Positions 2,298 to 48,607 of a stretch of DNA of 64,000 nt are shown piece after piece. Made by a program: the position numbers and the translations under genes. The notes under the pieces are model-generated. The model did no database searches, had not been told where the DNA came from, and was given only the letters and a program-made list of their open reading frames with translations. Source of the stretch: Segatella copri (lineage in GTDB: Bacteria > Bacteroidota > Bacteroidia > Bacteroidales > Bacteroidaceae); NCBI RefSeq assembly GCF_019249655.2, contig NZ_CP137557.1:1175001-1239000 (forward strand), in the 5' to 3' direction. Position 1 is the first letter of the stretch. Each line of letters starts with the position of its first letter.

Positions 2298-3611
2298 ATG
2301 GCAAATTTAGTAGCAATCGTAGGTCGCCCTAACGTGGGTAAATCTACTTTATTCAATCGTTTGACTCAATCTCGCCGCGCCATCGTGAGCGATACAGCTG
2401 GTACTACCCGCGACCGCCAGTATGGCAAGTGCAGCTGGAACGGCAGAGAATTCTCTGTGGTGGATACCGGTGGTTGGGTCGTTAAATCAGATGACATTTT
2501 CGAGGATGCTATCCGCAAGCAGGTGTTGGTAGCTACCGAAGAGGCCGACCTGGTACTCTTCCTGGTAGATGTTAACACCGGTTTGACCGACTGGGATGAG
2601 GACGTGGCCCTGATCTTGCGTCGTGCCAAACTGCCTGTAATCCTTGTGGCAAACAAGGTGGACAACAGTGCTGAATACTATCAGGCTGCCGAGTTCTATA
2701 AGTTGGGCTTGGGCGACCCTCAGTGTATCAGTGCCGCAACAGGTGGCGGTACGGGTGACTTGCTCGACATCATATTAGACAAGCTTCAGGACAATCCTGA
2801 GGAAGCCATCGAGGAAGACATTCCTCGTTTCGCCGTGGTAGGTCGTCCTAACGCCGGCAAGAGCAGTATCATCAATGCCTTCATCGGTGAAGACAGAAAC
2901 ATCGTTACCGAGATTGCTGGTACTACCCGCGACAGTATCTATACCCGTTACGACAAGTTCGGCTTCGACTTCTATCTGGTTGATACCGCCGGTATCCGCC
3001 GCAAGAACAAGGTGAGCGAGGACCTGGAGTTCTATTCCGTGATGCGTTCCATCCGTGCCATCGAGAACAGTGATGTCTGCATCCTGATGCTCGACGCCAC
3101 CCGTGGTATCGAGACCCAGGATATGAACATCTTCCAGTTGATTCAGAAGAACAACAAGAGTCTGGTGGTGGTAGTAAACAAGTGGGACTTGGTAGAGGAG
3201 AAGAACCAGAAGGTGATTGATACCTTCGAGAATGCCATCCGCAAGCGCATGGCTCCGTTCGTGGATTTCCCTATCATCTTCGCTTCTGCTTTGACCAAGC
3301 AGCGCATCTTCCGCGTATTGGAGACTGCCAAGGATGTTTACCAGAACCGCAAGGCTCATATCGGAACCTCTAAGCTCAACGAGGTGATGTTGCCTATCAT
3401 TGAGGCTTATCCACCACAGAGCGTGAAGGGTAAGTATATCAAGATCAAGTACTGTACCCAGTTGCCAAACACCACGATTCCATCGTTCGTGTTCTATGCC
3501 AACTTGCCACAGTATGTAAAGGAGAACTATCGCCGCTTCCTGGAGAACAAGATTCGTGAGAACTGGTCGTTGCATGGTTGTCCAATCAACGTCTTCATTC
3601 GTCAGAAGTAA
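2298..3611 (+). CDS. der: Tandem-domain GTPase Der (EngA), 50S assembly
   Basis: The 437-aa protein has two consecutive GTPase domains, the hallmark of Der. Domain 1 has GRPNVGKST (8-16), DTGGW and NKVD; domain 2 has GRPNAGKSS (about 179-187), DTAGIRR and NKWDLV. A C-terminal KH-like domain ends in GCPINVFIR. It is needed for large-subunit assembly. It sits between era and a small lipoprotein gene on the same strand. Length and motifs are complete. Confidence 0.97.
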
Positions 3612-4899: not shown

Positions 4900-5658
4900 A
4901 TGAAACAGAACGTACTACTTTCAATGTTGGCAATGACTGTCCCAATGGCAGCATTCGCTGATGCTAATGTACCTACTGCAAAAGATGTATATTCTTCTGC
5001 CGGTGGATTTGTGACATTTGATGTTTCATTGGTGCCTGGCGAATATACTATCGCAGCTAAGCCAACTAAGAACGAGACCGTGAAGGTTATGGTAGATGGT
5101 AAGGAAGTATCTACCTTCACTGTAAAAAAAGAAGGCAATGTGAAGATTCAGGCTACTGTTGATGAGAAGACAGAGTTTGAGTCAGCATTTGTGTTGACAC
5201 TCAAGTATGATTTTGCGGTTGTAGCTGACCCTTTTGCAAAGAAACTTGAAACCGTTACAGCTGGTATTGTAGATAATACTGCTGCCATCCAGGCTAGTGT
5301 TGCTTCTATTGAAGCAAAAATAGAGAATTTGAAGAAGGGTGATTATAACTTCTATAAGATTCAGCAGCTCTATTTGGAAGATAACTCTATCTATGTTAGA
5401 GATCTGAATAACTCATTGGAACAGTTGGGTAAGGATGTTAAGGCTGCAAATGATAATCTTAAAGCTAAGAATACTGCGTCTGGTCTTATAGAGACTGTAG
5501 AGACTCAGTTGGCTGAAATCGAGACACTTATCGGTACCAGTACAGATTACGCTAAGGTAACTAAGGGCTATGAGGCTCAGGTAAAGGCTTTGAGAACTGC
5601 AAAGGATGCTAAGGCTAAGGCTCTTGCTACTTCTTATGAGGTTCTTCTCAAATTTTAG
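4900..5658 (+). pseudogene. N-terminal fragment of giant secreted coiled-coil protein, cut by IS
   Basis: The 252-aa reading frame starts with a signal peptide (hydrophobic core followed by AAFADA). Next comes a beta-rich domain (about 25-110: GGFVTFDVSLVPGEYTI, VKVMVDGKEV) and then Ala/Lys/Asp-rich helix. Codons up to 5639 are native; the last residues (VLLKF and stop) come from the insertion sequence at 5640. Removing the IS (5640-7503) and one target-duplication copy joins 5639 to 7512 in frame and restores a single ORF of 5,991 nt (1,996 aa) ending at 12762. This fragment can still be exported but lacks the coiled-coil rod, dockerin-like and cohesin-like parts. Confidence 0.9.
5632..5639. 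repeat. Left target-site duplication of ISL3 element (8 bp)
   Basis: TCTTATGA directly before the left terminal repeat; the identical octamer follows the right repeat at 7504-7511. An 8-bp duplication is typical of ISL3-family transposition. Confidence 0.92.
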
Positions 5659-7503
5659 TACAAAGCCCCAATTTTTATATGAAGGAGCAATATTTTTGAG
5701 AAAGTTTAATATAAAAAATTAGCGATTGTCTCCAAAAATATGTAAGTTTAAAGTGATCATAAAATATGACTTACAATGGATACAATCGCTAACAGATGCA
5801 AAATTATAAAAAAGATAAGGAACAACCAAATAAAATCCGATATAAATGCTTCTATGGCCGGAGAAAAACTTCTTATGGACATTTTTCCTGCCATAGATGG
5901 CTTTTTTATCACAAGTTGTGACTTCTCTTCCACGGAACTCAAAATGGTTCTCGTGAGTACGGCTACCCATGCCTTCTGCGACCGTTGTGGCCAGAAAACC
6001 ACTCATACCCGTGGCTGGCAAAAGAGAACGGTCACGATGTGTCCTTTAGGGTGTAAACGGTTTGTTCTCACCCTTTACATGCGCCGTTTTTACTGCCAGT
6101 CTGATAAACATATATTTGTAGAGCAACAGACGAAGTGGCTAAACAAATATGCAAGATTCAGTGTAAGATGCATAGAGTTGATGAACCAGCTTCATATACA
6201 TATGTCATCTGTGTCGACCTCCAAGGTCATGAGAAAGATGGGAATCACCTGCTGTCCAAATACTTGCATAAATCATTTGAAAAAGATCCAAAGACTTCCA
6301 GACAGGACTGCCAGGAATATAGGCATAGATGACTTTGCCAAGAGAAAGGGACATACCTATGGCAGTGTTATCGTAGACCATGACACAGGCGAGATTTTGG
6401 AACTGATAGACTCTAGAGATTCTTCGATTGTGGCAAATGTCTTGAAACAATACAAGAAAGTCGATACTATCACTCGTGATAGGGGACGATGCTTCATTAA
6501 GGCTATCAAGCAAGGAGCCCCATCAGCACATGCTATCACAGACAAATTCCATGTCATTGAAGACTTGACGAGCGCAGTCTTTCCAAAGATTCTGCAGGAG
6601 TTTTTGCATAAGAGAATGGAGTTGCTGACTCAAGGTCTAGTTGGTCCCATTAAGCCACAAATAAGTAGAGGTTGGCTTTATACCAGCATATATGCAGTCT
6701 TGGAATCGATGTGCAAGGATACAAGAAGAATCAAGAAAATGGCTGAATGGAACACTTTCATGGATCTTTATGCAAGGCAAGGACTGACTTTGAGTGAAAT
6801 CCATGACAAAACAGGGTTTGATGGATTTAAGATGGGAAAGCTAAGGAACACCAAATATGAGGACTTGCTCAACCCAACGCAACTAAGGGCTTACAAAGCC
6901 ATAGAATCTATTACAAACAGGATTCTCTGTAAAAAGTCATTGGATTACTCTGTGGTTACCAAGGGGTTACATTCTACAGAGAAGAAAGAAATACTGAAAA
7001 GACTTCTTTTTCTACTGAGAGAAAAATGGAAGGAAGACTGGAAGGCATACGATGATGCCTACAAGGCATTTCTTGCAAAGGCAACTATCAGGAGCGAAGA
7101 GTATGACCTTTGGAATTCAATAGTTCACTTCAACTGGAAAACCAAGACTGATACAGTCAGATTGTTTCTGCAGGACTTGCATATTACCGATTTAGCCTAT
7201 TATATAACAACATTTCAAGGCATTTTGAGCGGAGAGGTCAAAATGAACTTGTACAAATGGATTAACATGGTCATAGGATGTGGTAATGAGAAAATGGAAA
7301 AGTTTGCCAAAGGACTGATTAAGGACTATTCCGCCATCAATAATTCTATTGCTAGCAAATTGAACAATGGAATCCTTGAAGGTTCGGTCAACAAGATAAA
7401 GACCGCAAAGCGAATTATGGGTGGAAGAGCATCGATTTCTCTTTTGCAGATAAAGGTCTCCTCAAACTTAGATACATAAATGTACCAAAATTTGAGAAGA
7501 ACC
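5640..7503 (+). mobile_element. Complete ISL3-family insertion sequence (1,864 bp)
   Basis: Terminal inverted repeats of 23 bp lie at 5640-5662 and 7481-7503 and differ at one position. They are flanked by identical 8-bp TCTTATGA duplications. One transposase gene fills the element. Intact ends, an intact ORF and a perfect duplication indicate a recent insertion. It sits in the same orientation as the host gene and interrupts it. Confidence 0.95.
5776..7479 (+). CDS. ISL3-family (IS204/IS1001/IS1096/IS1165) transposase
   Basis: The 567-aa protein has an N-terminal zinc-finger-like region (CDRCGQKT about 69, then CPLGC and YCQSDKHIF). The DDE catalytic domain follows, with candidate acidic residues in IGIDDFAKRKGH (about 181), TITRDRGR (about 234) and NNGILEGSVNKIK (about 540). 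The ending KRIMGGRASISLLQIKV matches the family pattern. Its TAA stop (7477-7479) is directly followed by ATG at 7480, which starts the downstream host-gene fragment. It catalyses cut-and-paste movement of this element. Confidence 0.95.
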   Translation: MDTIANRCKIIKKIRNNQIKSDINASMAGEKLLMDIFPAIDGFFITSCDFSSTELKMVLVSTATHAFCDRCGQKTTHTRGWQKRTVTMCPLGCKRFVLTLYMRRFYCQSDKHIFVEQQTKWLNKYARFSVRCIELMNQLHIHMSSVSTSKVMRKMGITCCPNTCINHLKKIQRLPDRTARNIGIDDFAKRKGHTYGSVIVDHDTGEILELIDSRDSSIVANVLKQYKKVDTITRDRGRCFIKAIKQGAPSAHAITDKFHVIEDLTSAVFPKILQEFLHKRMELLTQGLVGPIKPQISRGWLYTSIYAVLESMCKDTRRIKKMAEWNTFMDLYARQGLTLSEIHDKTGFDGFKMGKLRNTKYEDLLNPTQLRAYKAIESITNRILCKKSLDYSVVTKGLHSTEKKEILKRLLFLLREKWKEDWKAYDDAYKAFLAKATIRSEEYDLWNSIVHFNWKTKTDTVRLFLQDLHITDLAYYITTFQGILSGEVKMNLYKWINMVIGCGNEKMEKFAKGLIKDYSAINNSIASKLNNGILEGSVNKIKTAKRIMGGRASISLLQIKVSSNLDT

Positions 7504-10500
7504 TCTTATGAGAAGGGTACTGCTGTTGCTGATTTCGTAGAAAAGGATGTTAAGGCTTGGCAGACAGAACAGTTGGCTGCTATTAAGGCGTTGAAAGGCA
7601 ATATTGAAGTTGCTAATGCCAATGACAACGATTATAATGAAGTTGCTAAGTTAGTAGCTGCATCTGAGGCAAATCGTAATGAAAAGACTCAGGAACTGTT
7701 GAAGCTTTTGCCTTCTGATGATGAGGTTTTGGGTAAGTTGTTGACTGATGCTCAGAACGAAATTGGGGAATTGAACAAGAAACTCTTGGCTGTAAAGACT
7801 GAGGCTCAGAATGGTACAGCAGAGTCTCATGATAATGCGACAGCAACCAAGAAGGCTAATCAGACAGCTTTAGCTGAGGTAGATGCTGATATCAATGCTG
7901 TTGTGGCAAAATATACCGGTTGGCAGAAGACTTATTCTGTAGAATTGAATGCGTCTGCAGAAAAGACTGCTAATTTGAAGAAGGTGACTGCTAAGGCTGA
8001 TGCTACATCTGCACAGTTGACCAAGAAGGCTACAACTATTGAGACTGCTATTGCTTCTGAGACAGCTAAGTTGAAGGCTGATGCTATCGCTCATAAGCTC
8101 GGTACTTATGCATGGACTACTATCCAGGGTGATATTGATGCCCTAGGTGTAATTGTAGGTAATTATAATAATGTTGCTATAGCCTTGACTAACTATAATG
8201 CAGCTATTGCTAAGTTGGAGAAGACTGCTACAGATAAGAATGTTACCGTAACCGTTAAGGTTGACGGTAAGGATAAGACTCAGACTTACGCAGAACTTAT
8301 TGCAGGTTTGAAGACAAGAGTTGCTAAGGTTCAGGCTGATTTCGATACAGCAAAGAAGGCTGCTGATGACAAGTTTGCTGCTGCTATTGCTGGTGTGAAG
8401 TTAGATGCTGATATTCAGACAGAAGCAGAGTCTTGGACAACTTCTTACGAGGCTAATAAGTATAAGTTTGATAACGCAAATCTTATTAAGGTTGCTACAG
8501 ACAAGGTTGATGCAGCCAAGGCAGACATCAAGAGTGCCTTCGATAGAATTGATACTTATAAGTTCGACTTCGATACTTACGGAAAGAAGGCTGAGACATT
8601 GCATGAGCAGTTGGGTAAGGTAAACCTTCAGGTTAATGATCTGGATGTACAGGTCAAGGCTTTGGATCCAAATGGTGCACCTGATAAGGCTATTGAAGGC
8701 GTAGGTAAGATCAATGAAACGTTGAAAACTGTCAGTGCAGACTTGGATAAGTTGACCATCGCTGCTGATGAGGCTAAGACCGCATTTGTTCCTGTTAAGG
8801 AGCTGAAGGCTACAGCTGATTCTAAGGTTGCCGAGTTGACTGCTAGTCATAAGGAGGTAGTTGCTCTGAATAAGGATGCTTCTGCTAAGTTTACTGAAGC
8901 TTGCGCTACCGCAGAGAAAGATATTAATACCATAACTGCCAATATTAAGACATCTTATGAGGCTGAAACCTTAGTTACAGACTGGAAGGATTCTAAGGAT
9001 AAGGATGGTAAGGTTATCAAGGGTTTTGAGACACTGTTGAAGGATCTCGCTACAACTCTTGCAGGATTGAAGGCTGATGCAAATGCAGCTAATGATAACT
9101 TGACTGCTAAGGATGCTCTTGTAAAGGCAATTACTACTTATGGTATTGCTGATAAGGTGGCTGCGGCTGATAAGGCACTTGGAACACTTGAGCATAAGAC
9201 ATTTAAGGATCAGCTTGCTGGATACAAGACAGAAAAAGCTGCCATTGATAAGGCTATCACTGATGCATACACGGCTGGCAAGGCAAAGGCTGAGCAGACT
9301 GCAATTACTCAGCGTATCCAGAGCTTGGCAAACAATTTGACAAACTTTGCTACAAATGTTCCTATTGTTGTTGCTAATAAGGACGCTTTGGATAATACCA
9401 CTTCTGATTTGGATGCAGCTTGGACAAAGGCATTCAATGATATCACAAATAGTGATGCTTCATCTAAGGTGAAGGAGTGGCAGGTTAAGCTGAATGAGCA
9501 GAAGGTATTGTTGGATGCAGCTAAGAAGAATGTTGCTTCTTCTTATGATGCTGGAACATTGCTTGATAGCAAGAAGTTGGAAATCAGCAAGCAGTTGGAG
9601 ACCATCCAGACCGAGGTTACTTCTATTGTGAAGGAGCAGGAAGCTGGTTACAATGCAGCTATTGCTGCCGACAACAAGGTGGTTTACGAGGACTTCCTGA
9701 GTGAGGCTAATCTGACCCAGACCATTATCAATAATGCGAAGGTTACAATCAATGGTTATCTGAATATCAACCATGATGTCTTGAAGCTCAATGTTGAAGA
9801 ACTTGATAAGGTTTCTAAGGCTCTTAAGGAGATTGATGTTTATCAGGCTAGCTTGGAAGACTTGAAGGCTAAGACTCTCAAGGAATATCAGGATACCAAG
9901 GCTCCTGCGTTGTTTGATGTAGCTGGTAATAATAAGAAGGCAGCTAATGCTTATCAGGGTAAGGTTACCCTTAAAATGAATAACTTGTCTTCTATTATTA
10001 ATAAGAAGGCTAATGATTTATATGCAGCTAAGTTCACTGAGGGTCTTGCCAAGAGCGTAACAGACCGTAAGACAGAGTTGGATAAGGTTGTTTATGACAA
10101 GAAGATGGTAACTTCTGCATTTACAGATGTTCAGAATGTTATTGATGAGATTACAGCACTTGCTGCTGATCAGGTTAATTTGATGATTAATCTTGATACT
10201 CAGATTCTTGACAAGATTCAGAATGCTGAAGACGCAAAGTTGCTTGACAAGGCTACAGCTAAGGCTTTGAATGATGATTATAGCGCTAAGCTTTCTGAAC
10301 TCGAGGCTGATGCAAAGGCAAAGGAAACCGAAATGGCTGCGTTTGTTCATGCTGATAGAGATAAGGATCTTGATGCCTTCAAGGAGAATGTAACTGCATC
10401 TGTTGGAGAGGCAAAGAAGAAGGTTGCTGCTGAAAAGTTGGCATTGACAAATTATGAGGCTGTTAAGGCTGATTTCGCTAAGTATGATAAGGCTAAGGCT

Positions 10501-12762
10501 GTTTATGAGACAGCAAAGAAGGCTGATGGTATCGCAAAGGCTAATGATGTTATCCGTAAGGAGTTGGCACCTAAGTTCACAGAGTTGGATGCTAATTTGG
10601 CTGCCGCAGAAAAGTACTATTTGGCTTACTTCTTTGATACATCAGCACTGAAGGCTGCTTCTAAGGCAATTGGTATTGATATCAATACTAAGAAGGCAGA
10701 GCTTGAACAGGCTAGAGTTGATAAGCTTAATAAGAGTGAATATGAGACTGCAATTGCTGGTTTTGCAAAGCGTATAGAGGCACTGTATGAAAGTGCTAAT
10801 AATACAGAGCAGGCCGCTATTAGCGCTGAGATTGCTAGTATTACTGCTGATAAGGATCAGGCCGTTAAAGGCTTCAATGCTGCAGGTGAGACAGAAAAGG
10901 CTACAGAGATTGAGAAGTTCTTCGAGACAAATTGCATGAATTTGGCTGCTGAATTTAGTAAATTGACGTTGCCAGAAGACTTGGCTGAGACTCAGGCTAC
11001 ATATATTGCTTGGGAAAAGAAGGTTGCCAAGGCTCATGCTGGTATCATCAACTTGTGGAAGGCTGATTTGACAGAGTCTACCTATAAGACTTTGGTTCAG
11101 AATTTCGATGTAGTTAAGGCAGAGTATGATAAGCTTGCTAATATCGTAACAACTGGTCATGAGCCTGTGAAGAAGGCTTATGCTGATAAGGCAGCTGAAC
11201 TTGGTGTTAAGGTGAACGAGCTTAAGGCTTCTTTGGAGGACGATAAGGCTAATGGCTTTGTTATGCTTTACAATACCAAGCGTCAGAGTGCAATTGATGC
11301 ATTAGGTGACGAGATTGAGCCTGTATTGAAGAAGGCTGATGCTAAGGAGACAGCATGGAAGACCAATGACAATGTGAAGGCATCTCTTGATACTCAGTTG
11401 CAGGCATTGAACACAAAGCTTGAGACTGTAGTGGATGCTATCGCAGAGCTTCCTCATGTAGCTGGTACTCTTGATGTTAGTGTTAAGAATATTACTGATG
11501 AGATTAAGTCTGTTACTGAGAGTATAGCTCTTGAAGCTCAGGCTGGAAAGCTTGTTGAAGGTTCTTACAAGACAAACGTAGACAATATTGCTGCTAGCAT
11601 TAAGAATTTGAACCTTGGTGCTCACAATTCTGAAGCTACTGGTGTTATCAAAGATATCCAGAGTATCTGTGATGGTATTATATCAGCAAATTACAATGCT
11701 ACTTTGAAGAGTGATGCTATAGCTGTTAATGATAAGATTTCTTCTTTGAAGGAATTCAACACCAATATGTTTAATGGCAATCGTTCTTATGTAAAGGATA
11801 TTAATGGTAATCAGATTAAGGATAAGGATGGCAAGGACATCACTATGTTGGAGAAGTTGCCAGACTATCTCGCAGAGGTATATCCAGCTGTTCTCACTAA
11901 GGCAGATGAACTCGCTAAGGAGCTGAATCTGATTAACATGAAGGCTAAGAACCATATTGGTGACGCTGACCTTGATGAGACTGTAACTGTTAATGACTAC
12001 TCTGAGGTTCGTTCTTGGATTATCGAGAACAAGGAGTACAAGGATCTTGCAGTTGACAAGGCTTGGGCTGGTGATGTTAATGGTGATGGCTTCTTCACTG
12101 TTGCTGACTTGACTCAGATTTCTAATATCATCTTCTACGGTGACCCTGCTGGTGAGAAGGTTGAGGAAACTGAGGGTGGTACAACAAGAGCTCGCGTTGT
12201 AAGAAGTGCTACTTCTGCTGATGGTGAACTTGCTGTTACCAAGACTGGTGAGGAAACTACCGTATTCGGTAAGACTGTTCAGATTGCAGTTGAGGTGGCT
12301 CATCAGGCAACATTCACTGCTGGTCAGTTCGATATCCAGTTGCCAGCTGGCATGAAGCTCGTAGGTCAGACATTGTCAGATCGTGCTAATGGTCATGAGT
12401 TGTTGAGCAACGAGATTGCAGACGGCAAGTATCGCTTCTTGGCTTCTACTATCGACAACAATGCATTCAATGGCAACAGTGGTGCTATCGTAGTGCTTAG
12501 CGTCGAGGTAGGTAGTGATTACAATGGCGGCGATATCCAGGTATCTAATGTCATCTTCTCTGATGCAAAGGGACGCTCTTATAGCATTACTAGAGGCATC
12601 GGTGATGGTACAGGCGAGACCACAGGTATCAACGCAATCACTGCACCTACTATGAAGGAGCGTATCTTCTCTATCGGTGGTATGGTGAAGAAGTCTATCC
12701 AGAAGGGTATTAACATCATCGTTGGTGAGGATGGTACTGCTCGCAAGGTAGTTAAGAAGTAA
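7480..12762 (+). CDS. C-terminal fragment of giant protein: helical rod, dockerin-like and cohesin-like domains
   Basis: This is a 1,760-aa ORF. Codons before 7512 are IS-derived (MYQNLRRTS...), and the native sequence resumes at YEKGTAVADF. Residues of about 10-1480 are an Ala/Lys/Asp/Thr-rich helical region with coiled-coil or spectrin-like character. About 1494-1552 is a two-loop dockerin-like segment: loop 1 DADLDETVTVND, loop 2 DVNGDGFFTVAD, both with good calcium-ligand spacing. About 1583-1715 is a cohesin-like beta sandwich (FDIQLPAGMKL, FLASTIDNNAFNGNSG). About 1716-1760 is the C-terminal motif (GINAI, IFSIGGM, KGINIIVGEDG) frequent at the ends of secreted Prevotella proteins. The IS removed the signal peptide, so if translated from 7480 it would stay cytoplasmic. 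The exact function is unknown. Confidence 0.85.
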   Translation: MYQNLRRTSYEKGTAVADFVEKDVKAWQTEQLAAIKALKGNIEVANANDNDYNEVAKLVAASEANRNEKTQELLKLLPSDDEVLGKLLTDAQNEIGELNKKLLAVKTEAQNGTAESHDNATATKKANQTALAEVDADINAVVAKYTGWQKTYSVELNASAEKTANLKKVTAKADATSAQLTKKATTIETAIASETAKLKADAIAHKLGTYAWTTIQGDIDALGVIVGNYNNVAIALTNYNAAIAKLEKTATDKNVTVTVKVDGKDKTQTYAELIAGLKTRVAKVQADFDTAKKAADDKFAAAIAGVKLDADIQTEAESWTTSYEANKYKFDNANLIKVATDKVDAAKADIKSAFDRIDTYKFDFDTYGKKAETLHEQLGKVNLQVNDLDVQVKALDPNGAPDKAIEGVGKINETLKTVSADLDKLTIAADEAKTAFVPVKELKATADSKVAELTASHKEVVALNKDASAKFTEACATAEKDINTITANIKTSYEAETLVTDWKDSKDKDGKVIKGFETLLKDLATTLAGLKADANAANDNLTAKDALVKAITTYGIADKVAAADKALGTLEHKTFKDQLAGYKTEKAAIDKAITDAYTAGKAKAEQTAITQRIQSLANNLTNFATNVPIVVANKDALDNTTSDLDAAWTKAFNDITNSDASSKVKEWQVKLNEQKVLLDAAKKNVASSYDAGTLLDSKKLEISKQLETIQTEVTSIVKEQEAGYNAAIAADNKVVYEDFLSEANLTQTIINNAKVTINGYLNINHDVLKLNVEELDKVSKALKEIDVYQASLEDLKAKTLKEYQDTKAPALFDVAGNNKKAANAYQGKVTLKMNNLSSIINKKANDLYAAKFTEGLAKSVTDRKTELDKVVYDKKMVTSAFTDVQNVIDEITALAADQVNLMINLDTQILDKIQNAEDAKLLDKATAKALNDDYSAKLSELEADAKAKETEMAAFVHADRDKDLDAFKENVTASVGEAKKKVAAEKLALTNYEAVKADFAKYDKAKAVYETAKKADGIAKANDVIRKELAPKFTELDANLAAAEKYYLAYFFDTSALKAASKAIGIDINTKKAELEQARVDKLNKSEYETAIAGFAKRIEALYESANNTEQAAISAEIASITADKDQAVKGFNAAGETEKATEIEKFFETNCMNLAAEFSKLTLPEDLAETQATYIAWEKKVAKAHAGIINLWKADLTESTYKTLVQNFDVVKAEYDKLANIVTTGHEPVKKAYADKAAELGVKVNELKASLEDDKANGFVMLYNTKRQSAIDALGDEIEPVLKKADAKETAWKTNDNVKASLDTQLQALNTKLETVVDAIAELPHVAGTLDVSVKNITDEIKSVTESIALEAQAGKLVEGSYKTNVDNIAASIKNLNLGAHNSEATGVIKDIQSICDGIISANYNATLKSDAIAVNDKISSLKEFNTNMFNGNRSYVKDINGNQIKDKDGKDITMLEKLPDYLAEVYPAVLTKADELAKELNLINMKAKNHIGDADLDETVTVNDYSEVRSWIIENKEYKDLAVDKAWAGDVNGDGFFTVADLTQISNIIFYGDPAGEKVEETEGGTTRARVVRSATSADGELAVTKTGEETTVFGKTVQIAVEVAHQATFTAGQFDIQLPAGMKLVGQTLSDRANGHELLSNEIADGKYRFLASTIDNNAFNGNSGAIVVLSVEVGSDYNGGDIQVSNVIFSDAKGRSYSITRGIGDGTGETTGINAITAPTMKERIFSIGGMVKKSIQKGINIIVGEDGTARKVVKK
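7504..7511. repeat. Right target-site duplication of ISL3 element (8 bp)
   Basis: TCTTATGA, identical to 5632-5639. Reading resumes in the host gene frame from here. Confidence 0.92.
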
Positions 12763-12782
12763 TAATAAAAAGAATAGTTGAG

Positions 12783-12839
12783 GGTATCAGTTGCTGCTTT
12801 CCCTCTGGAAAAAGGCAACTGATACTTGATACCTTTTCT
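12783..12839 (+). terminator. Hairpin pair after giant-protein gene
   Basis: Perfect 11-bp arms at 12784-12794 and 12815-12825. A competing pairing exists between GGTATCA (12783-12789) and TGATACC (12827-12833), followed by TTTTCTT. It lies between two genes of the same cluster, so it may be a terminator or an attenuator that lowers read-through. Confidence 0.6.
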
Positions 12840-12873
12840 TCAAGATTAAAACAACATTTAAAATTATAATAAT

Positions 12874-13932
12874 ATGAAGAAATTATTCAACACACTGATG
12901 TTTCTCGCATTGGGCAGTGCCGCAACTTATGCTGATAACACGCTCAGAATCGCTGATTTCGTAATCAACGCCGGAGAACAGAAAACATTGGAAATTGAAC
13001 TCAATAATGATGATAACGCATTATCTTCATTGCAGTTTGATATAGCACTTCCTAAGGGATTGACTTACGTAGATGGTAGTGTTGTTAAGGCAACAGATCG
13101 TATCACTCGTACCAGTCATACCGTAAAGGTTGTTGCGCAGAAGAACGGAGACTATCGTTTTGGTATCTTCTCTAATGAGGCTCAAGACAAGGCTCAGGTA
13201 GCTATTGCTGGTAAGGCTGGTGCCATCCTTTCTATTACAGTGAAGGCTGAGGAGAATTGCGAAGGTGGTGTTATCACTTTCAATGAGATTACTGGTAGTG
13301 ATGCTACTGTAGCTGGTAAGGTTGAAAAGGTTCCTGTAAAGGGCGTTGCTGGTAAGGCTTCAGTTTCTGCAGGTGAGTTGGCAGTAACTAGCACAAAGAA
13401 TCTTTTCCTTGCTGGTAAGAAGGTTGTTGTTGACTTCAACGTCAAGAATGATGTGAAGTTGTCAGGCATGTCTGCTATTGTTACTCTTCCAGAGGGTGTT
13501 ACATTTGCAGAAGGTGACAAGGTGGTTTACGGCAAGCGTCTTTCTGAAAACGTAGTTGCTGATGTTGCTGCTGTAGAAGGTAAGACAAATACTTATAAGT
13601 TGACTCTTAGCTCTTTCACAAATGATGTATTTGCAGAAGGTGATGCTCTCTTTGGCTTGAATCTCGTTGCAGGTGAAGGCTTCAAGGGTGGTGACTTGGT
13701 TCTTTCTGAGGTGAAGTTCGCTAATCCTAAGGGTATCGAATTCTTGGTAGAGAACGCATTTGCTTATAAGTTGAATGCTACTCTCGTTGGTGCAGATAAA
13801 TGGTCAATTAATGATGTTTATGACGTTGTTTCTGTTATGAAGGGTGTAAAGGTGCATCCTGATGCTGATATGACAGAAGATGGTCAGGTAAATATCAATG
13901 ATGTTTATTCTGTAGTTGGATTAATGAAGTAG
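12874..13932 (+). CDS. Secreted protein with two cohesin-like domains and a dockerin-like tail
   Basis: The 352-aa protein begins with a signal peptide (MKKLFNTLMFLALGS...YADN). Residues of about 22-160 and 168-295 are two similar beta-rich, cohesin-like domains (LQFDIALPKGLTYVDG; MSAIVTLPEGVTFAEG). The last 50 residues form a dockerin-like pair: a degenerate first loop (WSINDVYDVVSVMK) and a second loop DMTEDGQVNIND with good calcium-ligand spacing before VYSVVGLMK. It belongs to the same cluster as its neighbours and could bridge them. Assignment rests on fold-like patterns; no enzyme motif is seen. Confidence 0.75.
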   Translation: MKKLFNTLMFLALGSAATYADNTLRIADFVINAGEQKTLEIELNNDDNALSSLQFDIALPKGLTYVDGSVVKATDRITRTSHTVKVVAQKNGDYRFGIFSNEAQDKAQVAIAGKAGAILSITVKAEENCEGGVITFNEITGSDATVAGKVEKVPVKGVAGKASVSAGELAVTSTKNLFLAGKKVVVDFNVKNDVKLSGMSAIVTLPEGVTFAEGDKVVYGKRLSENVVADVAAVEGKTNTYKLTLSSFTNDVFAEGDALFGLNLVAGEGFKGGDLVLSEVKFANPKGIEFLVENAFAYKLNATLVGADKWSINDVYDVVSVMKGVKVHPDADMTEDGQVNINDVYSVVGLMK

Positions 13933-13947
13933 TATAATTTTAAAAAA

Positions 13948-15228
13948 ATGAATATTATGAAAAAGAATATGTTCGTAGCAAAGTTGGGTATGTTCCTGAT
14001 GATGCTTTTCGGTAGTGTTTCTATTGTTAATGGTGCGGATCTCGTTCAGTTGGCTGCGCCTACAATTACAGTCGATGGTCCTATCAAGATGATTCCTGGA
14101 ATGGAAGCTGAAATTTCCATTAACTACGAGAGTAAAGATGAGTACTCTGGTTACCAGATGAAGGTTGCTTTGCCTGAAGGTCTTTCAGTAGTAGAGGAAA
14201 AGGACGAAGAGGGTGAGATTGTCTATGGTACTCTTGGTGATGCTTGCTCTGCTAAGTATCATGCTTCAGATATTTCATTCAAGGACAATGAGATTTTCTT
14301 CATCGTATTTAGTGTAAAGAACACTATGTTGAAGAAGGGTACATTGTGCAAGTTCAAGGTTAAGGCTAATGAGAAGTTGGCTAAGGACGCTAAGATTGAG
14401 CTTAGAGAAGTAATGTTTGCTGCTATTGGTGTTACCAGCGGTTATCTTACTTTGCCAGAAATCACAGTCAACAACATCAAGGACGAGTGGGATGCTAACG
14501 AGGCTGCAAATACCAAGATCAATGAGGCTCTCATGACTACAATGACTGCATTGGATGCTGCTGATGCTACAATCAACGAAACCTGCCTTGAGTCTTTGAG
14601 AGAAGGTTATCTCGACAAATTGGCTGACTGCGCTACCGTTATCAACCAGAAGGGTATGGAGTTGAGCGCCAAGTATGCTGCTATCGAGTTAACAGAGAAG
14701 GATGTTGAGGACTTCGTTGCAGTTTGCGCTGAGACTCAGACAAAGATTCAGGCAATCCTTGATGAGGCTGCTGCGATGACTAAGAAGTTCGAGACTAACG
14801 AGGCTGCTAACGCTACATTCCAGGCTGCCTTTACTGAGATTTCTACTCTGTTGAATGACGCTGATGCTAAGATCAACGATGAGTGCCCAGACGTTAAGGA
14901 TACTTATCTTGATCAGTTGGCAGAAATTGCAACTCAGGTTAATCAGAAGGGTATGGAGCTTGGTTCTCTCTACGCTGCTGTTGAGTTGACACAGGAAGTA
15001 GCTGATAAGGCTGCTGCTGAAATCAATGCATTTGCTGCTCAGATTAAGGATATCGTTGCTGCTGCTGTTAAGGCTCAGAATGAGATTGCTACTGGTATCC
15101 ATGGTATCAATGCAGACTTCCAGAATGCTGAGGCTGTTTACTCTATCGGTGGTGTTCGTCTGAACAAGGCTGCTAAGGGTGTGAACGTAGTTATCAGAAA
15201 TGGTAAGGCTATTAAGGTTGTGAAGTAG
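13948..15228 (+). CDS. Secreted protein with cohesin-like domain and duplicated helical unit
   Basis: This is a 426-aa product. The start may be the ATG at 13948 or 13957; both give a signal peptide ending near VNGAD. About 38-180 is a cohesin-like beta domain (YQMKVALPEGLSVVEE). About 182-262 and 283-360 are two copies of one helical unit, each with NEAAN, (D/N)ADA, INxxC, YLDxLA and NQKGMEL landmarks. The last 30 residues (VYSIGGVRLNKAAKGVNVV) are the C-terminal motif also present in the giant protein. It lies 15 bp after the dockerin-tailed gene, and the terminator at 15288 ends the cluster. Function unknown; a structural or adhesive surface role is inferred. Confidence 0.75.
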   Translation: MNIMKKNMFVAKLGMFLMMLFGSVSIVNGADLVQLAAPTITVDGPIKMIPGMEAEISINYESKDEYSGYQMKVALPEGLSVVEEKDEEGEIVYGTLGDACSAKYHASDISFKDNEIFFIVFSVKNTMLKKGTLCKFKVKANEKLAKDAKIELREVMFAAIGVTSGYLTLPEITVNNIKDEWDANEAANTKINEALMTTMTALDAADATINETCLESLREGYLDKLADCATVINQKGMELSAKYAAIELTEKDVEDFVAVCAETQTKIQAILDEAAAMTKKFETNEAANATFQAAFTEISTLLNDADAKINDECPDVKDTYLDQLAEIATQVNQKGMELGSLYAAVELTQEVADKAAAEINAFAAQIKDIVAAAVKAQNEIATGIHGINADFQNAEAVYSIGGVRLNKAAKGVNVVIRNGKAIKVVK

Positions 15229-16158: not shown

Positions 16159-16189
16159 TTGGCAGTTTCAATAAAAAAGTGTATCTTCG
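16159..16189 (+). promoter_or_regulatory. Promoter of intact Rpn-type nuclease gene
   Basis: TTG at 16159-16161, 20-nt spacer, TATCTTCG at 16182-16189. The leader up to the ATG is near-identical to that of the truncated copy at 15472-15527, so the two arose by duplication. Confidence 0.6.
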
Positions 16190-16236
16190 CAGCAGAAATG
16201 CAATATTGCGTCCACGACCTTATAAAACTTAAGAAG

Positions 16237-17118
16237 ATGGCAAGATTTATAGACCCACGTGTCGATTGGGCTTTCAAGCGAATCTTTGGAAGCGAGGACA
16301 CGAAAGAATGCCTGATAACATTCCTGAACGGACTGTTTGAAGACGAGTTGGTAATCAAGGACGTGACGTTTGCCAAGACCGAAAAACTTGGCTTGCGCCC
16401 CGATGACCGTGGTGTGGTCTTCGATGTCTATTGCATCACAAACGAGGACAAGCATATCATCGTCGAGATGCAGAAGAAAGAACAGGAATACTTTGCCGAC
16501 AGGGCATTGTATTACACGGCACGTGCCATTGTGCAGCAGGGGGTTCGTGGAATCTGGGACTATCACTTGGCTCCAGTCTATACGGTATGTTTCATGGATT
16601 TCGTGTCGTCGAGTCCGATATTAAAGAAGTTTCGCACCGACTTGGTGCTTACCGATTTGCAGACACGCCAGCTAGTGTCCGACAGGATGCGTATTGTGTA
16701 CCTCCAACTGCCCTTGTTCGACAAGCATACGGAGGCAGAGTGTATGGATATATTTGATTGTTGGATTTATATAATGAAGAATATGAACATGTTTGAGCAG
16801 ATGCCATTCAGCGAGAAGTATCCAGTCTTCCGCAAGTTGGCAGAGATAGGCGACCTCCGCAAGCTTTCCCGCGAAGAACTTGAGCTTTATGACGAGGACA
16901 TCAAGAATATGCGTGATATATATGCCACCAGAAAGTTTGATGAGAAAAGAGGAATGGAAAAAGGGCGTGCAGAAGGAATGGCAGAAGGAATGGCTAAAGG
17001 TGAACTGTCTAAAGGTTTGGAAGTAGCCCGTAACTTGTTGGCAATGGGTATGTCTTGGACTCAAATCATACAAGCTACTGGATTGACGGAAGACCAGCTG
17101 AAGCAACTTCAGTCGTAG
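16237..17118 (+). CDS. Rpn-family recombination-promoting nuclease / PD-(D/E)XK transposase-like protein
   Basis: The 293-aa protein is counted from ATG 16237 (MARFIDPRVDWAFKRIFG). An upstream in-frame ATG at 16159 lies inside the promoter and is rejected. The N-terminus has the family hallmark FKRIFGSEDTKECLITFLNG. The PD-(D/E)XK core shows D in VVFDVYC (about 73) and E-x-Q in HIIVEMQKK (about 84-86). A C-terminal low-complexity GMAEGMAKG repeat precedes GMSWTQIIQATGLTEDQL. Such Rpn proteins (PDDEXK_2) cleave DNA and stimulate RecA-independent recombination in studied members. The cellular role here is not known. Confidence 0.88.
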   Translation: MARFIDPRVDWAFKRIFGSEDTKECLITFLNGLFEDELVIKDVTFAKTEKLGLRPDDRGVVFDVYCITNEDKHIIVEMQKKEQEYFADRALYYTARAIVQQGVRGIWDYHLAPVYTVCFMDFVSSSPILKKFRTDLVLTDLQTRQLVSDRMRIVYLQLPLFDKHTEAECMDIFDCWIYIMKNMNMFEQMPFSEKYPVFRKLAEIGDLRKLSREELELYDEDIKNMRDIYATRKFDEKRGMEKGRAEGMAEGMAKGELSKGLEVARNLLAMGMSWTQIIQATGLTEDQLKQLQS

Positions 17119-35627: not shown

Positions 35628-35702
35628 GGGCGCTTAGCTCAGCTGGTTTAGAGCATCTGCCTTACAAGCAGAGGGTCGGCGGTTCGAATCCGTCAGCGCC
35701 CA
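35628..35702 (+). tRNA. tRNA-Val(TAC), copy 1
   Basis: 75-nt cloverleaf. The acceptor arm GGGCGCT pairs with AGCGCCC. The anticodon loop is CTTACAA (anticodon TAC, reads GTA), and the T loop is GTTCGAATC. The discriminator is A and CCA is not encoded. Confidence 0.97.
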
Positions 35703-35711
35703 CAGGGGTGT

Positions 35712-35750
35712 TCCCTGTGACTCACTTTTGTGGTTGCAGGGATTTTTTTT
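35712..35750 (+). terminator. Terminator-like hairpin in the first tRNA spacer
   Basis: TCCCTG...CAGGGA imperfect stem followed by T8. It could release part of the transcripts after tRNA copy 1. Confidence 0.55.
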
Positions 35751-35752
35751 CA

Positions 35753-35827
35753 GGGCGCTTAGCTCAGCTGGTTTAGAGCATCTGCCTTACAAGCAGAGGG
35801 TCGGCGGTTCGAATCCGTCAGCGCCCA
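35753..35827 (+). tRNA. tRNA-Val(TAC), copy 2
   Basis: Identical over 75 nt to copy 1; same acceptor stem, TAC anticodon and A discriminator. Confidence 0.97.
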
Positions 35828-35878
35828 CGGAACTTGGTTTCGTGATTAACTGAAGAAAGAAATCCTTACTTATCATAA

Positions 35879-35953
35879 GGGCGCTTAGCTCAGCTGGTTT
35901 AGAGCATCTGCCTTACAAGCAGAGGGTCGGCGGTTCGAATCCGTCAGCGCCCA
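35879..35953 (+). tRNA. tRNA-Val(TAC), copy 3
   Basis: Identical over 75 nt to copies 1, 2 and 4. The spacer before it shares CGGAACTTGGTTTCGTGATT and TATCATAA words with the next spacer. Confidence 0.97.
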
Positions 35954-36005
35954 CGGAACTTGGTTTCGTGATTTTAATTTTAGAAAGAATATTTATTTAT
36001 CATAA

Positions 36006-36080
36006 GGGCGCTTAGCTCAGCTGGTTTAGAGCATCTGCCTTACAAGCAGAGGGTCGGCGGTTCGAATCCGTCAGCGCCCA
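36006..36080 (+). tRNA. tRNA-Val(TAC), copy 4
   Basis: Identical over 75 nt to the other copies. A strong terminator follows within 10 bases. Confidence 0.97.
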
Positions 36081-36088
36081 CCCTTATG

Positions 36089-45987: not shown

Positions 45988-46533
45988 ATGAAGACAGAAA
46001 TCATTATATCCGGTTTTGGTGGTCAGGGTGTCCTTTCGATGGGAAAGATCCTGGCCTATTCAGGACTGATGGAAGACAAGGAGGTAACCTGGATGCCTGC
46101 TTACGGACCAGAGCAGCGTGGCGGTACGGCCAACGTGACGGTCATAGTGAGCGACAGCCGCATCTCTTCGCCTATCCTGAGCCATTACGATGTAGCCATC
46201 GTGCTCAACCAGCCATCGCTCGATAAGTTCGAGTCAAAGATTAAGCCTGGCGGTATTCTTATTTATGATGGTTATGGCGTGATGAATCCTCCACAGCGCA
46301 AGGACATCACCATCTATCGCATTGATGCGATGGACAAGGCTGCCGAGATGAAGAATTCAAAGGTGTTCAATATGATTGTATTGGGCGGACTGCTGAAGGT
46401 TTGCCCAGTGGTGAGCACCGGCGGTTTGAACAAGGCACTCTACAAATCATTGCCAGAGCGTCATCATGGTCTGATTCCATTGAATATGAAGGCTGTGGAA
46501 GAGGGAATGAAGATTATCGAAAAGATTGATTAA
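45988..46533 (+). CDS. korC: 2-oxoacid:ferredoxin oxidoreductase gamma subunit
   Basis: The 181-aa protein has IIISGFGGQGVLSMGKILAYSG at the N-terminus and WMPAYGPEQRGGTANVTV, the CoA-binding gamma-domain signature. The MIVLGGLLK segment is conserved. It is the last gene of the operon. Confidence 0.92.
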   Translation: MKTEIIISGFGGQGVLSMGKILAYSGLMEDKEVTWMPAYGPEQRGGTANVTVIVSDSRISSPILSHYDVAIVLNQPSLDKFESKIKPGGILIYDGYGVMNPPQRKDITIYRIDAMDKAAEMKNSKVFNMIVLGGLLKVCPVVSTGGLNKALYKSLPERHHGLIPLNMKAVEEGMKIIEKID

Positions 46534-46597
46534 TCCTTTAGAGAAAGTCGAATCATTCATTTCGAAAATATCGAATAATAATTTAAATATTTGCCGT

Positions 46598-48607
46598 ATG
46601 ACTAAAAAATCCAACAATCTATTGTCCCTCTTCGGGGCACTCTTACTAACCTCGTCGCTCCAGGCCCAGAGTCTGCTGCCAAAACCGCAGCAGGTTACGA
46701 TGGGCAAGGGCGTGTTCAACACCAGCGACGGTGTGAAAGTAGAAAACCAAGTAGGCGCTGATGCCGAGAATATCTATACCAAGGCATGGAATGTCAAGGT
46801 GAACGATGCAGCCAAGCGAGTGGTGAAGTTTACTCCACTCGCCAATGCATCTTCGCCAGAGGCATACCGGCTTCGTGTGGCACCTGATGCCATTGAAATC
46901 AGTGCCGCCAGCAGCGAAGGCTTTCTTCGTGCCTGGCAGACCATGAAGCAGCTTACCACCAAGAAAGGCATCGCATGCTGCGACATCGTGGATGCACCTG
47001 CCTACAAGTGGCGCGGCTTGATGCTCGATGTTTCCCGTCATTACTTCCCAATCTCCTTCCTCAAGAAGCAGATTGATGTGATGTCGGAATATAAGTTCAA
47101 CCGTCTCCATATCCATCTGACTGATGCAGCCGGATGGCGCATCGAAATCAAGCGTTATCCTAGACTCAACAATTTCGCCGCCTGGCGTTCGGGTAAGTTA
47201 TGGAAAGACTGGAATGCCAATGGCAACAAGTATCTGGAGCAGGGCAGCGAGGGTGCCGAGGGTGGTTACTATACCCAGGATGAACTCCGCGACCTGGTGA
47301 AATATGCTGCCGAGCGTGGCATCACCATCGTTCCGGAAATCGAGATGCCGGGTCATTCAGAGGAGGTGCTTACCGCATATCCAGAGTTATCCTGTACCCA
47401 TGAACCTTACAAGCAGGCAGATTTCTGTCCGGGCAACATCGGAACCTACGATTTCCTGGAGAATGTCTTGAAAGAGGTGATGGATATCTTCCCTTCTCAT
47501 TACATCCATGTGGGTGGCGATGAGGCTGCGAAGAAGTCGTGGGGCAGTTGTGCCCTCTGCCAGAAGAAGATGAAGGAGCTGGGCATCGACCATGTGGATG
47601 GATTGCAGGCTCATCTCATTTCCCACATGGGCAAGTTCCTGAACGAGCATGGTCGCCAGCTCGTGGGGTGGGATGAGGTGATAGCCGGAAATCTCTCCAA
47701 GAATACCACCGTGATGGTTTGGCGTGGCACCGAACTGGCACACGAGGCCATCAAGCATGGCTACGACGTGGTGATGTCGCCGGGAGCCTACTGTTACTTC
47801 GATATGTATCAGGATGCACCGGGCACCCAGCCAGTGGCAAATGGCGGTTTCATTCCTACCGAGAAGGTGTATAGCTACGTGCCGGGAAGCGATCTTCCTG
47901 AGGCGGAGCGCAATATGATTACCGGTGTGCAGGCAAACCTCTGGACCGAGCATATTCCTACTCCAGAGTATGCCGAGTATATGCTTTATCCTCGTGCCTT
48001 GGCTCTGGCAGAGATTGGCTGGAACGGAACCAAGACCAAGAACTATCCTGAGTTTAAGACCCGTGCCCTGGCGCAGATAGAACACCTGAAGGCTGAAGGC
48101 GTGAATCCATTCGAGCTGAAGAAGGAGATTGGTGAGCGCAAGGAGAAGATGAAGCCGGTGCAGCACAAGGCTGTGGGTGCCAAGGTTACCTATAACCATG
48201 CTTACAACCGCTACTATCCTGCGGCTGGCGAACAGACGCTGGTGGATGGCAATATGGGCGGTTGGGCTCATGGCGACGGTCGCTGGCAGGGCTTTATCGG
48301 CAAGGATTGCTTCGATGTTACCATCGATCTGGGTAATTCTACCAAGATCAGCAGCGTAGGCACCGACTTCATGCAGAGCAGCGGTCCTGAGATTTTCTAT
48401 CCTTCTCAATATACGGTATCAGTTAGTGAGGATGGCAAGAACTTCACCCAGGTATTCGACAAGAAATATGAGTCGAGCAAGGAGCCGATTCTGAACTTCA
48501 AGACGCTTACCTGGAAGGGCAGCAAGACAGCCCGCTACATCCGGGTTCAGGCAAAGCCAAGCAGCTTCGGCGGCTGGCTATTTGTGGATGAAATTATCGT
48601 GAAATAA
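46598..48607 (+). CDS. Secreted beta-N-acetylhexosaminidase (GH20) with C-terminal discoidin-like domain
   Basis: The 669-aa enzyme is counted from ATG 46598, which gives a clean signal peptide (LFGALLLTSSLQAQ). The upstream ATG at 46526 would overlap korC and bury the signal. GH20b N-domain (LLPKPQQVTMG), then the catalytic barrel: RGLMLDVSRHYFP, HLTDAAGWRIEIKRYP and the catalytic Asp-Glu pair in HVGGDEAAKKSW. From about 545 a discoidin/F5-8-like carbohydrate-binding module follows (LVDGNMGGWAHGDGRWQGF ... ARYIRVQAKP). It removes terminal GlcNAc/GalNAc from glycans such as mucin or N-glycans. Confidence 0.95.
   Translation: MTKKSNNLLSLFGALLLTSSLQAQSLLPKPQQVTMGKGVFNTSDGVKVENQVGADAENIYTKAWNVKVNDAAKRVVKFTPLANASSPEAYRLRVAPDAIEISAASSEGFLRAWQTMKQLTTKKGIACCDIVDAPAYKWRGLMLDVSRHYFPISFLKKQIDVMSEYKFNRLHIHLTDAAGWRIEIKRYPRLNNFAAWRSGKLWKDWNANGNKYLEQGSEGAEGGYYTQDELRDLVKYAAERGITIVPEIEMPGHSEEVLTAYPELSCTHEPYKQADFCPGNIGTYDFLENVLKEVMDIFPSHYIHVGGDEAAKKSWGSCALCQKKMKELGIDHVDGLQAHLISHMGKFLNEHGRQLVGWDEVIAGNLSKNTTVMVWRGTELAHEAIKHGYDVVMSPGAYCYFDMYQDAPGTQPVANGGFIPTEKVYSYVPGSDLPEAERNMITGVQANLWTEHIPTPEYAEYMLYPRALALAEIGWNGTKTKNYPEFKTRALAQIEHLKAEGVNPFELKKEIGERKEKMKPVQHKAVGAKVTYNHAYNRYYPAAGEQTLVDGNMGGWAHGDGRWQGFIGKDCFDVTIDLGNSTKISSVGTDFMQSSGPEIFYPSQYTVSVSEDGKNFTQVFDKKYESSKEPILNFKTLTWKGSKTARYIRVQAKPSSFGGWLFVDEIIVK

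Follow-up and report, generated by a model that had tools for sequence, protein, structure and literature searches.

What might three adjacent genes that encode cohesin-like and dockerin-like domains, with no enzyme among them, build in Segatella copri? The genes, here called A, B and C, lie in a 64,000-nucleotide stretch of contig NZ_CP137557.1 (hereafter the window, in whose numbering all positions are given), and a preliminary description of the sequence had suggested calcium-dependent self-assembly into a fibre, matrix or adhesin. Following a computational analysis of the locus and its relatives, we lean, with moderate confidence, towards an enzyme-free cell-surface assembly held together by cohesin–dockerin clasps, in which the specificity between the dockerin of B (B-Doc) and the cohesin of C (C-Coh) is exchangeable. 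Protein A would be a helical rod of about 1,500 residues with a C-terminal base made of a dockerin (A-Doc), a cohesin (A-Coh) and a Bacteroidota-type tail, B a small clamp with two cohesins (B-Coh1 and B-Coh2), and C an adaptor composed of one cohesin and a tail. A-Doc would plug into a cohesin of B, and one B would join two rods at their bases; B-Doc would plug into C-Coh, and C would supply the tail, acting as a surface anchor or export signal, that is absent from B. The B-Doc/C-Coh specificity pair would diversify and move between operons, and may thereby insulate co-resident systems or make the assembly lineage-specific. A surface location is suggested by the signal peptides and tails. This wiring (B-Doc to C-Coh and, less surely, A-Doc to B-Coh), together with the exchange of the pair, goes beyond what had been proposed before.

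The genes follow one another on the plus strand, with 111 bp before B and 15 bp before C. Their parts, in amino acids (aa) and open reading frames (ORFs), are as follows.

4900–5658, plus strand: N-terminal part of protein A (252-aa ORF), a beta domain and the start of the helical region, continuous in the intact relative P0184
5632–5639, no strand: left copy of the 8-bp target-site duplication TCTTATGA, read from the sequence
5640–7503, plus strand: ISL3-family insertion sequence (IS), 1864 bp, with transposase at 5776–7479 and terminal inverted repeats
7504–7511, no strand: right copy of the 8-bp target-site duplication TCTTATGA, read from the sequence
7480–12762, plus strand: remainder of protein A, the helical rod followed by dockerin, cohesin and tail (1,760-aa ORF, its ATG inside the IS end)
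11956–12147, plus strand: A dockerin, two loops, both intact, with recognition positions unlike between repeats
12220–12594, plus strand: A cohesin domain, by predicted fold and profile
12616–12756, plus strand: A C-terminal tail, Bacteroidota-type, with GINII
12874–13932, plus strand: protein B, 352 aa, two cohesins and a dockerin; signal peptide by inspection
12934–13341, plus strand: B cohesin 1
13360–13779, plus strand: B cohesin 2
13780–13929, plus strand: B dockerin, loop 1 degenerate and loop 2 intact; an exchangeable cassette in relatives
13948–15228, plus strand: protein C, 426 aa, cohesin, helical-looking insert and tail; signal peptide by inspection
14086–14415, plus strand: C cohesin, by profile evidence alone
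15088–15225, plus strand: C C-terminal tail, with GVNVV

Structural comparison of models of A and B supported the cohesin beta-sandwich fold, the closest rows for A-Coh and B-Coh2 including PDB 2jh2, 2vo8 and 2w1n from Clostridium perfringens. Sequence identity of the cohesin-like domains to solved cohesins was about 9–19%; the Pfam cohesin model PF00963 found no match at E ≤ 1 in A, B or C of the window, its cut-off not being reached, and at E ≤ 0.1 it matched 4 of the 19 sequences aligned for B, the best of them with 1.4e-7. A profile of the A dockerin recovered PDB dockerins with E-values of 1.2e-9 and 1.4e-8, and PF00404 (Dockerin type I) matched all 12 A-dockerin members at E ≤ 0.05, with the window's A below the Pfam cut-off. 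The B dockerin was likewise supported by its family profile. Two tandem F-hand calcium loops of the known-dockerin type are therefore complete in A and present in part in the window's B, where loop 1 is degenerate. Since PF00404 misses some dockerins of this locus, dockerin counts per genome given below are lower bounds. Whole-protein Pfam and NCBIfam scans gave no name for A, B or C, and no relative of C was found in viral contigs. Both kinds of domain could have a structural role only, as beta-sandwich and calcium-binding linker, with no mutual binding. The low identity to solved cohesins and the degenerate loop of B would suit such a role; the joint presence of both halves of a known binding pair in the classed loci, the symmetric, variable motif at loop positions and the co-exchange, all described below, speak against it, and we consider it very unlikely.

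The absence of enzymes noted previously was borne out, no enzyme domain being found inside A, B or C and no dockerin-bearing carbohydrate-active enzyme (CAZyme) among them. Pfam revealed no carbohydrate-binding module (CBM) in these proteins and there was no scaffoldin-type cohesin array, the maximum being two cohesins per protein in the window and three in the classed relatives. As the trio showed none of these three features, membership of a cellulosome was rejected, in agreement with the preliminary description. Two further readings were rejected: the motif GxN(V/I)(V/I) is no marker of this assembly, as it also occurs on a solved arabinanase, and A is not read as a single continuous coiled coil, because the model of its last 480 residues shows separate helices. 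Structural matches to that model cover the cohesin only.

The order A then B on the same strand was found in other Prevotellaceae, including Prevotella sp. P2-180 (locus L001) and Prevotella or Prevotellaceae metagenome-assembled genomes, MAGs (L002, L003 and L005). These four make up the loci with A directly 5′ of B in a first set of nine, in which the A-like neighbour of L004 is shorter (918 aa), L006 and L008 lack the unit, and L007 and L009 were left out of the unit check. Eight of the 10 high-scoring loci fetched by a match to B (G250, ranked just above G143, was left out) have the same arrangement, the remaining two, L059 and L060, carrying a shorter upstream cohesin/dockerin gene (1542 and 868 aa). 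A cohesin gene lies directly 3′ on the same strand in all 11 loci fetched by a match to A (L064–L068, L070, L071 and L077–L080), for which E was below about 1e-44 in a draw of 249 genomes and, for four new loci, ≤ 1e-50 in a draw of 398. The A end was matched at E ≤ 1e-50 in at least 18 of the 398 genomes, drawn from the genus of G001, and the dockerin–cohesin–tail region at E ≤ 1e-20 in at least 59 of the 249 genomes of the earlier draw from that genus; drawing from the order gave at least 4 of 295, one being G001 itself. The searches scored the best few candidates per genome, so these tallies are lower bounds. The preliminary description was to be abandoned if the folds proved to be others or the trio was not conserved as a unit in other genomes; with support for both the folds and the unit, neither was the case. 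Overall, what it had observed was confirmed in part, and its interpretation is partly supported.

The loci bearing A also follow a simple rule. Of 24 that were read, 17 could be classed, the others being at a contig end (L064), part of larger clusters (L065, L066, L067, L068 and L070) or ambiguous (L071); only part of A is present in L003, L057, L061 and L068. In the 10 trio loci (the window, L001, L002, L003, L005, L054, L055, L056, L061 and L080), B ends in a dockerin and is followed by a separate C with cohesin and tail. In the seven duo loci (L057, L058, L062, L063, L077, L078 and L079), B itself ends in a tail, and no further cohesin gene was detected in the fetched stretch at E < 0.01; in L078 and L079, for example, B consists of two cohesins and a tail (359 and 362 aa). 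This rule holds in 17/17 classed loci, with all 17 tails judged by eye because the tail profile misses several, and with the C cohesin of L061 matching PF00963 at E 7.7e-4, below the Pfam cut-off. On a tree of A, three changes between the trio and duo states were needed, at least two of them forced by well-supported branches. This alternation, in which B carries either a dockerin, with C encoded separately, or its own tail, with no C found, suggests that B probably obtains a tail from C by way of B-Doc:C-Coh binding. In the simplest reading, B-Doc and C-Coh together probably stand in for the covalent link between B and a tail.

The same alternation could reflect piggy-back export, in which B-Doc would bind C-Coh in the periplasm and the tail of C would take B through type IX secretion (T9SS), the complex serving export and no lasting surface structure. 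B indeed has a signal peptide and no tail, the trade-off between dockerin with C and tail without C covers all 17 classed loci, and the T9SS translocon protein SprA (SprA_N) was present in all 10 locus carriers checked as well as in G007, i.e. in 11/11 genomes. Curated models revealed no T9SS C-terminal sorting domain (tail scan; whole-protein Pfam and NCBIfam), however, and the proposed route is read from tails without an NCBIfam match. We regard piggy-back export as distinctly improbable. The presence of SprA also counts in favour of the surface assembly proposed above, as does the small number of recognised dockerins in carriers of the locus (see below).

Evidence that the putative B-Doc/C-Coh clasp behaves as a unit came from comparing operons module by module. 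L005 and L054, close operons from two genomes, share 80% amino acid identity in the A rod, 90% in A-Doc, 79% in A-Coh, 70% in B-Coh1 and 62% in B-Coh2, compared with 43% in B-Doc and 41% in C-Coh. Between L054 and L056, identity is 24% in the rod, 44% in A-Doc, 61% in A-Coh, 37% in B-Coh1 and 35% in B-Coh2, compared with 90% in B-Doc and 88% in C-Coh. At the DNA level, L005 and L054 are 93–98% identical in the A tail, spacer and B signal, 78–83% in A-Coh and A-Doc, 68–73% in the B cohesins, 50–53% from B-Doc to C-Coh, 75% in the C tail and 91% over 58 aligned bases after C. Synonymous divergence (dS) between them is 0.09–0.49 in the B signal, A tail and rod, 0.55 in the C tail, 0.8–1.2 in A-Doc and the A and B cohesins, 1.45 in the C signal and 2.1–2.5 in B-Doc and C-Coh; between L054 and L056, dS is saturated in the rod and B-Coh1 and 0.41–0.97 from B-Doc to C-Coh. 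This shift of dS over the modules indicates different genealogies, not fast substitution alone. The moved block spans about 700 bp, from B-Doc through C-Coh, and its left edge, between B-Coh2 and B-Doc, is a module edge in genomes and database proteins.

Database B proteins also displayed the exchange of dockerins. Cohesins and dockerin are 99% versus 44% identical between P0004 and P0005, 96% versus 42% between P0013 and P0021, 48% versus 100% between P0004 and P0021, and 48% versus 98% between P0005 and P0013; all four combinations of two B bodies with two dockerin alleles thus exist. The window's B and P0002 have cohesins 97% and dockerins 66% identical, and among database B proteins with 95–99% identical cohesins the dockerins are down to 36–44% alike. 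Taken with the operon comparisons, B-Doc and C-Coh, a predicted clasp pair, seem to pass from lineage to lineage in the manner of a cassette.

The dockerin of B also bears a symmetric motif. At loop positions 10, 11, 13 and 14, its two repeats agree at 59 of 76 positions over 19 alleles, the first repeats of the window's B-Doc and that of P0002 being placed by alignment as the loop is degenerate; shuffling gave a mean of 18.4 and a maximum of 38, none of 20,000 shuffles being as high as 59. After removal of four of the 19 alleles as near-duplicates, agreement was 49/60 (shuffle mean 14.1; 0/20,000). Position 11 alone holds 11 different residues across alleles and repeats. No such agreement was seen between the repeats of A-Doc (10/48 in 12 sequences; shuffle mean 10.1). 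Symmetric repeats are the look of a dual-mode type I dockerin, and their presence in B-Doc and absence from A-Doc make the former look like a diversifying lock and the latter like a more conserved one.

Could the cassette pattern arise neutrally, by frequent homologous recombination in a surface locus, with B-Doc and C-Coh travelling together by adjacency? The two adjoin in the DNA, so that linkage alone could move both; about 700 bp of adjacent DNA moves as one block, omega within it is low (0.06–0.11), and its right edge is not sharp, blurred because the C tails are alike in three operons (L005, L054 and L056) and nearly the same in L005 and L056. Neutral drift does not predict, however, that recognition positions shift in step in both repeats, and the left edge falls on the module edge. 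We judge a purely neutral origin unlikely. Besides linkage and the blurred right edge, several further points weigh against the clasp assembly that we favour. Clear co-exchange at the genome level is seen in one case, L054/L056. The comparison of L005 with L055 gives a weaker signal: identity in B-Doc (61%) and C-Coh (77%) is higher than in the B cohesins (44% and 38%), but A-Doc (63%) is at least as alike as B-Doc, and A-Coh (69%) more so. The database B alleles are known from proteins alone, without their C-Coh alleles. The 17 classed loci are related and do not amount to 17 independent events. Seven tails compared with NCBIfam gave no relevant match at E up to 10, and the tail was modelled with a confidence (pLDDT) of about 49. 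Lastly, distances of the A-Doc and B-Coh modules correlate with Spearman coefficients of 0.77 and 0.81, not much higher than the 0.69 for the rod; this correlation was rejected as proof of A-Doc to B-Coh binding, being too confounded by shared ancestry. That pairing draws support also from the duo loci, which have no other dockerin.

For A-Coh the locus itself offers no obvious partner; a leucine-rich-repeat (LRR) protein with a dockerin in G001 is one candidate. The trio might accordingly be a display scaffold, a reduced cellulosome analogue presenting other dockerin proteins (BspA-type LRR proteins, enzymes) on the surface. Elsewhere in its genome, G001 encodes an LRR_5/Big_2 protein that has a dockerin at its end, together with a cohesin- and dockerin-bearing Big_2 protein, and other Bacteroidales (G007, G047, G079 and G183) have 41–95 recognised dockerins, some on rhamnogalacturonan lyases, with 1–5 recognised cohesins. 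By contrast, the 11 carriers checked have 0–7 recognised dockerins each (PF00404 misses some), the two G001 dockerins examined outside the locus are not on enzymes, and trio and duo loci have one to three cohesins per protein with no long array. A role in display seems quite unlikely to us. The B-Doc/C-Coh pair might also act as a polymorphic lineage tag, its lock-and-key alleles deciding whose subunits enter whose rod-based coat (kin discrimination, or cross-assembly insulation among co-resident Prevotella). We entertain this tentatively, as rather unlikely; a literature search, with most subscription papers outside its reach, found no paper on such a role for cohesin–dockerin pairs. These explanations are not mutually exclusive and their likelihoods need not add up to certainty.

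The window's own copy of the operon is interrupted. The element in A has all the features of the ISL3 family, namely a DDE_Tnp_ISL3 transposase (NF033550, E 6.6e-62), terminal inverted repeats of 23 bp with one mismatch, and the 8-bp target duplication usual for this family. The codons of A end at 5639, positions 5640–5658 of the first ORF being IS sequence, and the insertion separates the part with the signal peptide (4900–5639; peptide recognised by inspection) from the remainder of A. In intact relatives, which are up to 100% identical to the 1,760-aa ORF, the protein runs uninterrupted over about 1,990 aa; the median length is 1,989 aa among the A homologues listed (n = 120), and P0184 represents 474 member sequences. 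The perfect target duplication points to a recent insertion. With A disrupted, an intact rod is probably not made in the window's strain, and, the rod gene being split, the claim of three secreted proteins is not supported in this genome. In C of the window, cohesin and tail are also separated by an insert of about 200 aa, which the 204–221-aa C proteins of L001, L003, L005 and L054–L056 lack.

Several observations were made around these loci. Genome G005 holds two complete trios, L005 and L056, whose modules are 41–45% identical (A-Coh 59%) and whose C tails are nearly identical; this module divergence is as expected if the trios were insulated. Seven relatives (L001, L002, L054, L055, L058, L062 and L064) have a small gene for a LytTR-type regulator at most about 1.2 kb 5′ of A, and L056 has one just 3′ of C; there was no match in the window, nor in L005 over the 1.4 kb preceding A. 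In the larger loci L065, L066, L067, L068 and L070, an A-type giant precedes two to four more cohesin/dockerin/tail proteins; Ig-like or MBG domains occur in some of these, and six that were scanned have no enzyme domain. G007 (L007, L074–L076), the Bacteroidaceae MAG RGIG4855, has 86 Dockerin_1 matches and one PF00963 cohesin match. Of six of its proteins scanned, five (721–1,569 aa) end in dockerins, two being rhamnogalacturonan lyases and one weakly esterase-like; the sixth, of 2,812 aa, carries a cohesin at its N-terminus and a dockerin at its C-terminus. G007 may possess a Bacteroidota enzyme-docking system. G079, G183 and G047, from the same genus draw, have 95, 51 and 41 recognised dockerins and 5, 3 and 4 recognised cohesins, respectively. 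Elsewhere in the window are an engA RNA motif (Rfam RF02972; 2159–2265) just 5′ of a two-domain GTPase ORF (2298–3611), a PD-(D/E)XK nuclease family transposase ORF (PF12784, E 1.2e-52; 16159–17118) 3′ of the trio, four tandem tRNA-Val(tac) genes (35628–36082) and, about 31 kb from the trio, a GH20 family glycosidase with an F5/8 type C domain and no dockerin match (46526–48604).

The cellulosomes of Clostridium thermocellum and Ruminococcus flavefaciens use the same cohesin and dockerin folds as this locus, and their symmetric dockerin repeats, like their logic of adaptors and anchors, recur in our proposal. A dual binding mode is named in the title of PDB 2vn5. Unlike a cellulosome, the trio has no detected enzyme or CBM, only one to three cohesins per protein, a giant helical rod and Bacteroidota tails. 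Cohesins outside cellulosomes are reportedly the subject of Peer 2009. One such cohesin (PDB 2xdh) and the cohesin–dockerin sets of ANME archaea, whose role is unclear, are, like this locus, not tied to cellulose breakdown; the ANME sets differ in architecture, the accessible text describing no rod–clamp–anchor operon (PMC9012536). The C. perfringens cohesin-like modules near A-Coh and B-Coh2 belong to secreted glycosidases, 2vo8 and 2w1n coming from glycoside hydrolases by title, unlike the enzyme-free trio. In R. flavefaciens, scaC encodes a small dockerin/cohesin scaffoldin polymorphic between strains, a precedent for a strain-polymorphic docking gene, but ScaC is part of a cellulosome and the accessible text mentions no co-exchange of dockerin and partner cohesin between operons (PMC3197198). 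Rumen Bacteroidetes and Prevotella dockerins belong to the same phylum but, in the available parts of these reports, are found on CAZymes, domains of unknown function or CBMs, or as counts per bin, and not in an enzyme-free operon (PMC7480376, PMC6071333, PMC5742341). The role of those in polysaccharide utilisation loci is described as undefined (PMC7480376); no CAZyme modules accompanied 44% of the predicted dockerins, and dockerin–cohesin proteins may serve other functions (PMC5742341). The lack of cohesins and dockerins in one genome was called consistent with other Bacteroidetes in the accessible part of another report (PMC5831590); contrary to that statement, many genomes of this group carried them in our searches. 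No paper on this operon or on dockerin-allele exchange was found within the same reach of the literature.

If the proposed assembly is correct, Prevotella-group gut bacteria would build an enzyme-free rod structure with cohesin–dockerin clasps, known mainly from fibre-degrading complexes. The shuffling of clasp specificity between lineages would then constitute a natural library of orthogonal cohesin–dockerin pairs for protein engineering, and the assembly would be a surface marker differing between gut strains. It would also offer a testable answer to the question of why rumen and gut Bacteroidota carry some of their unexplained dockerins.

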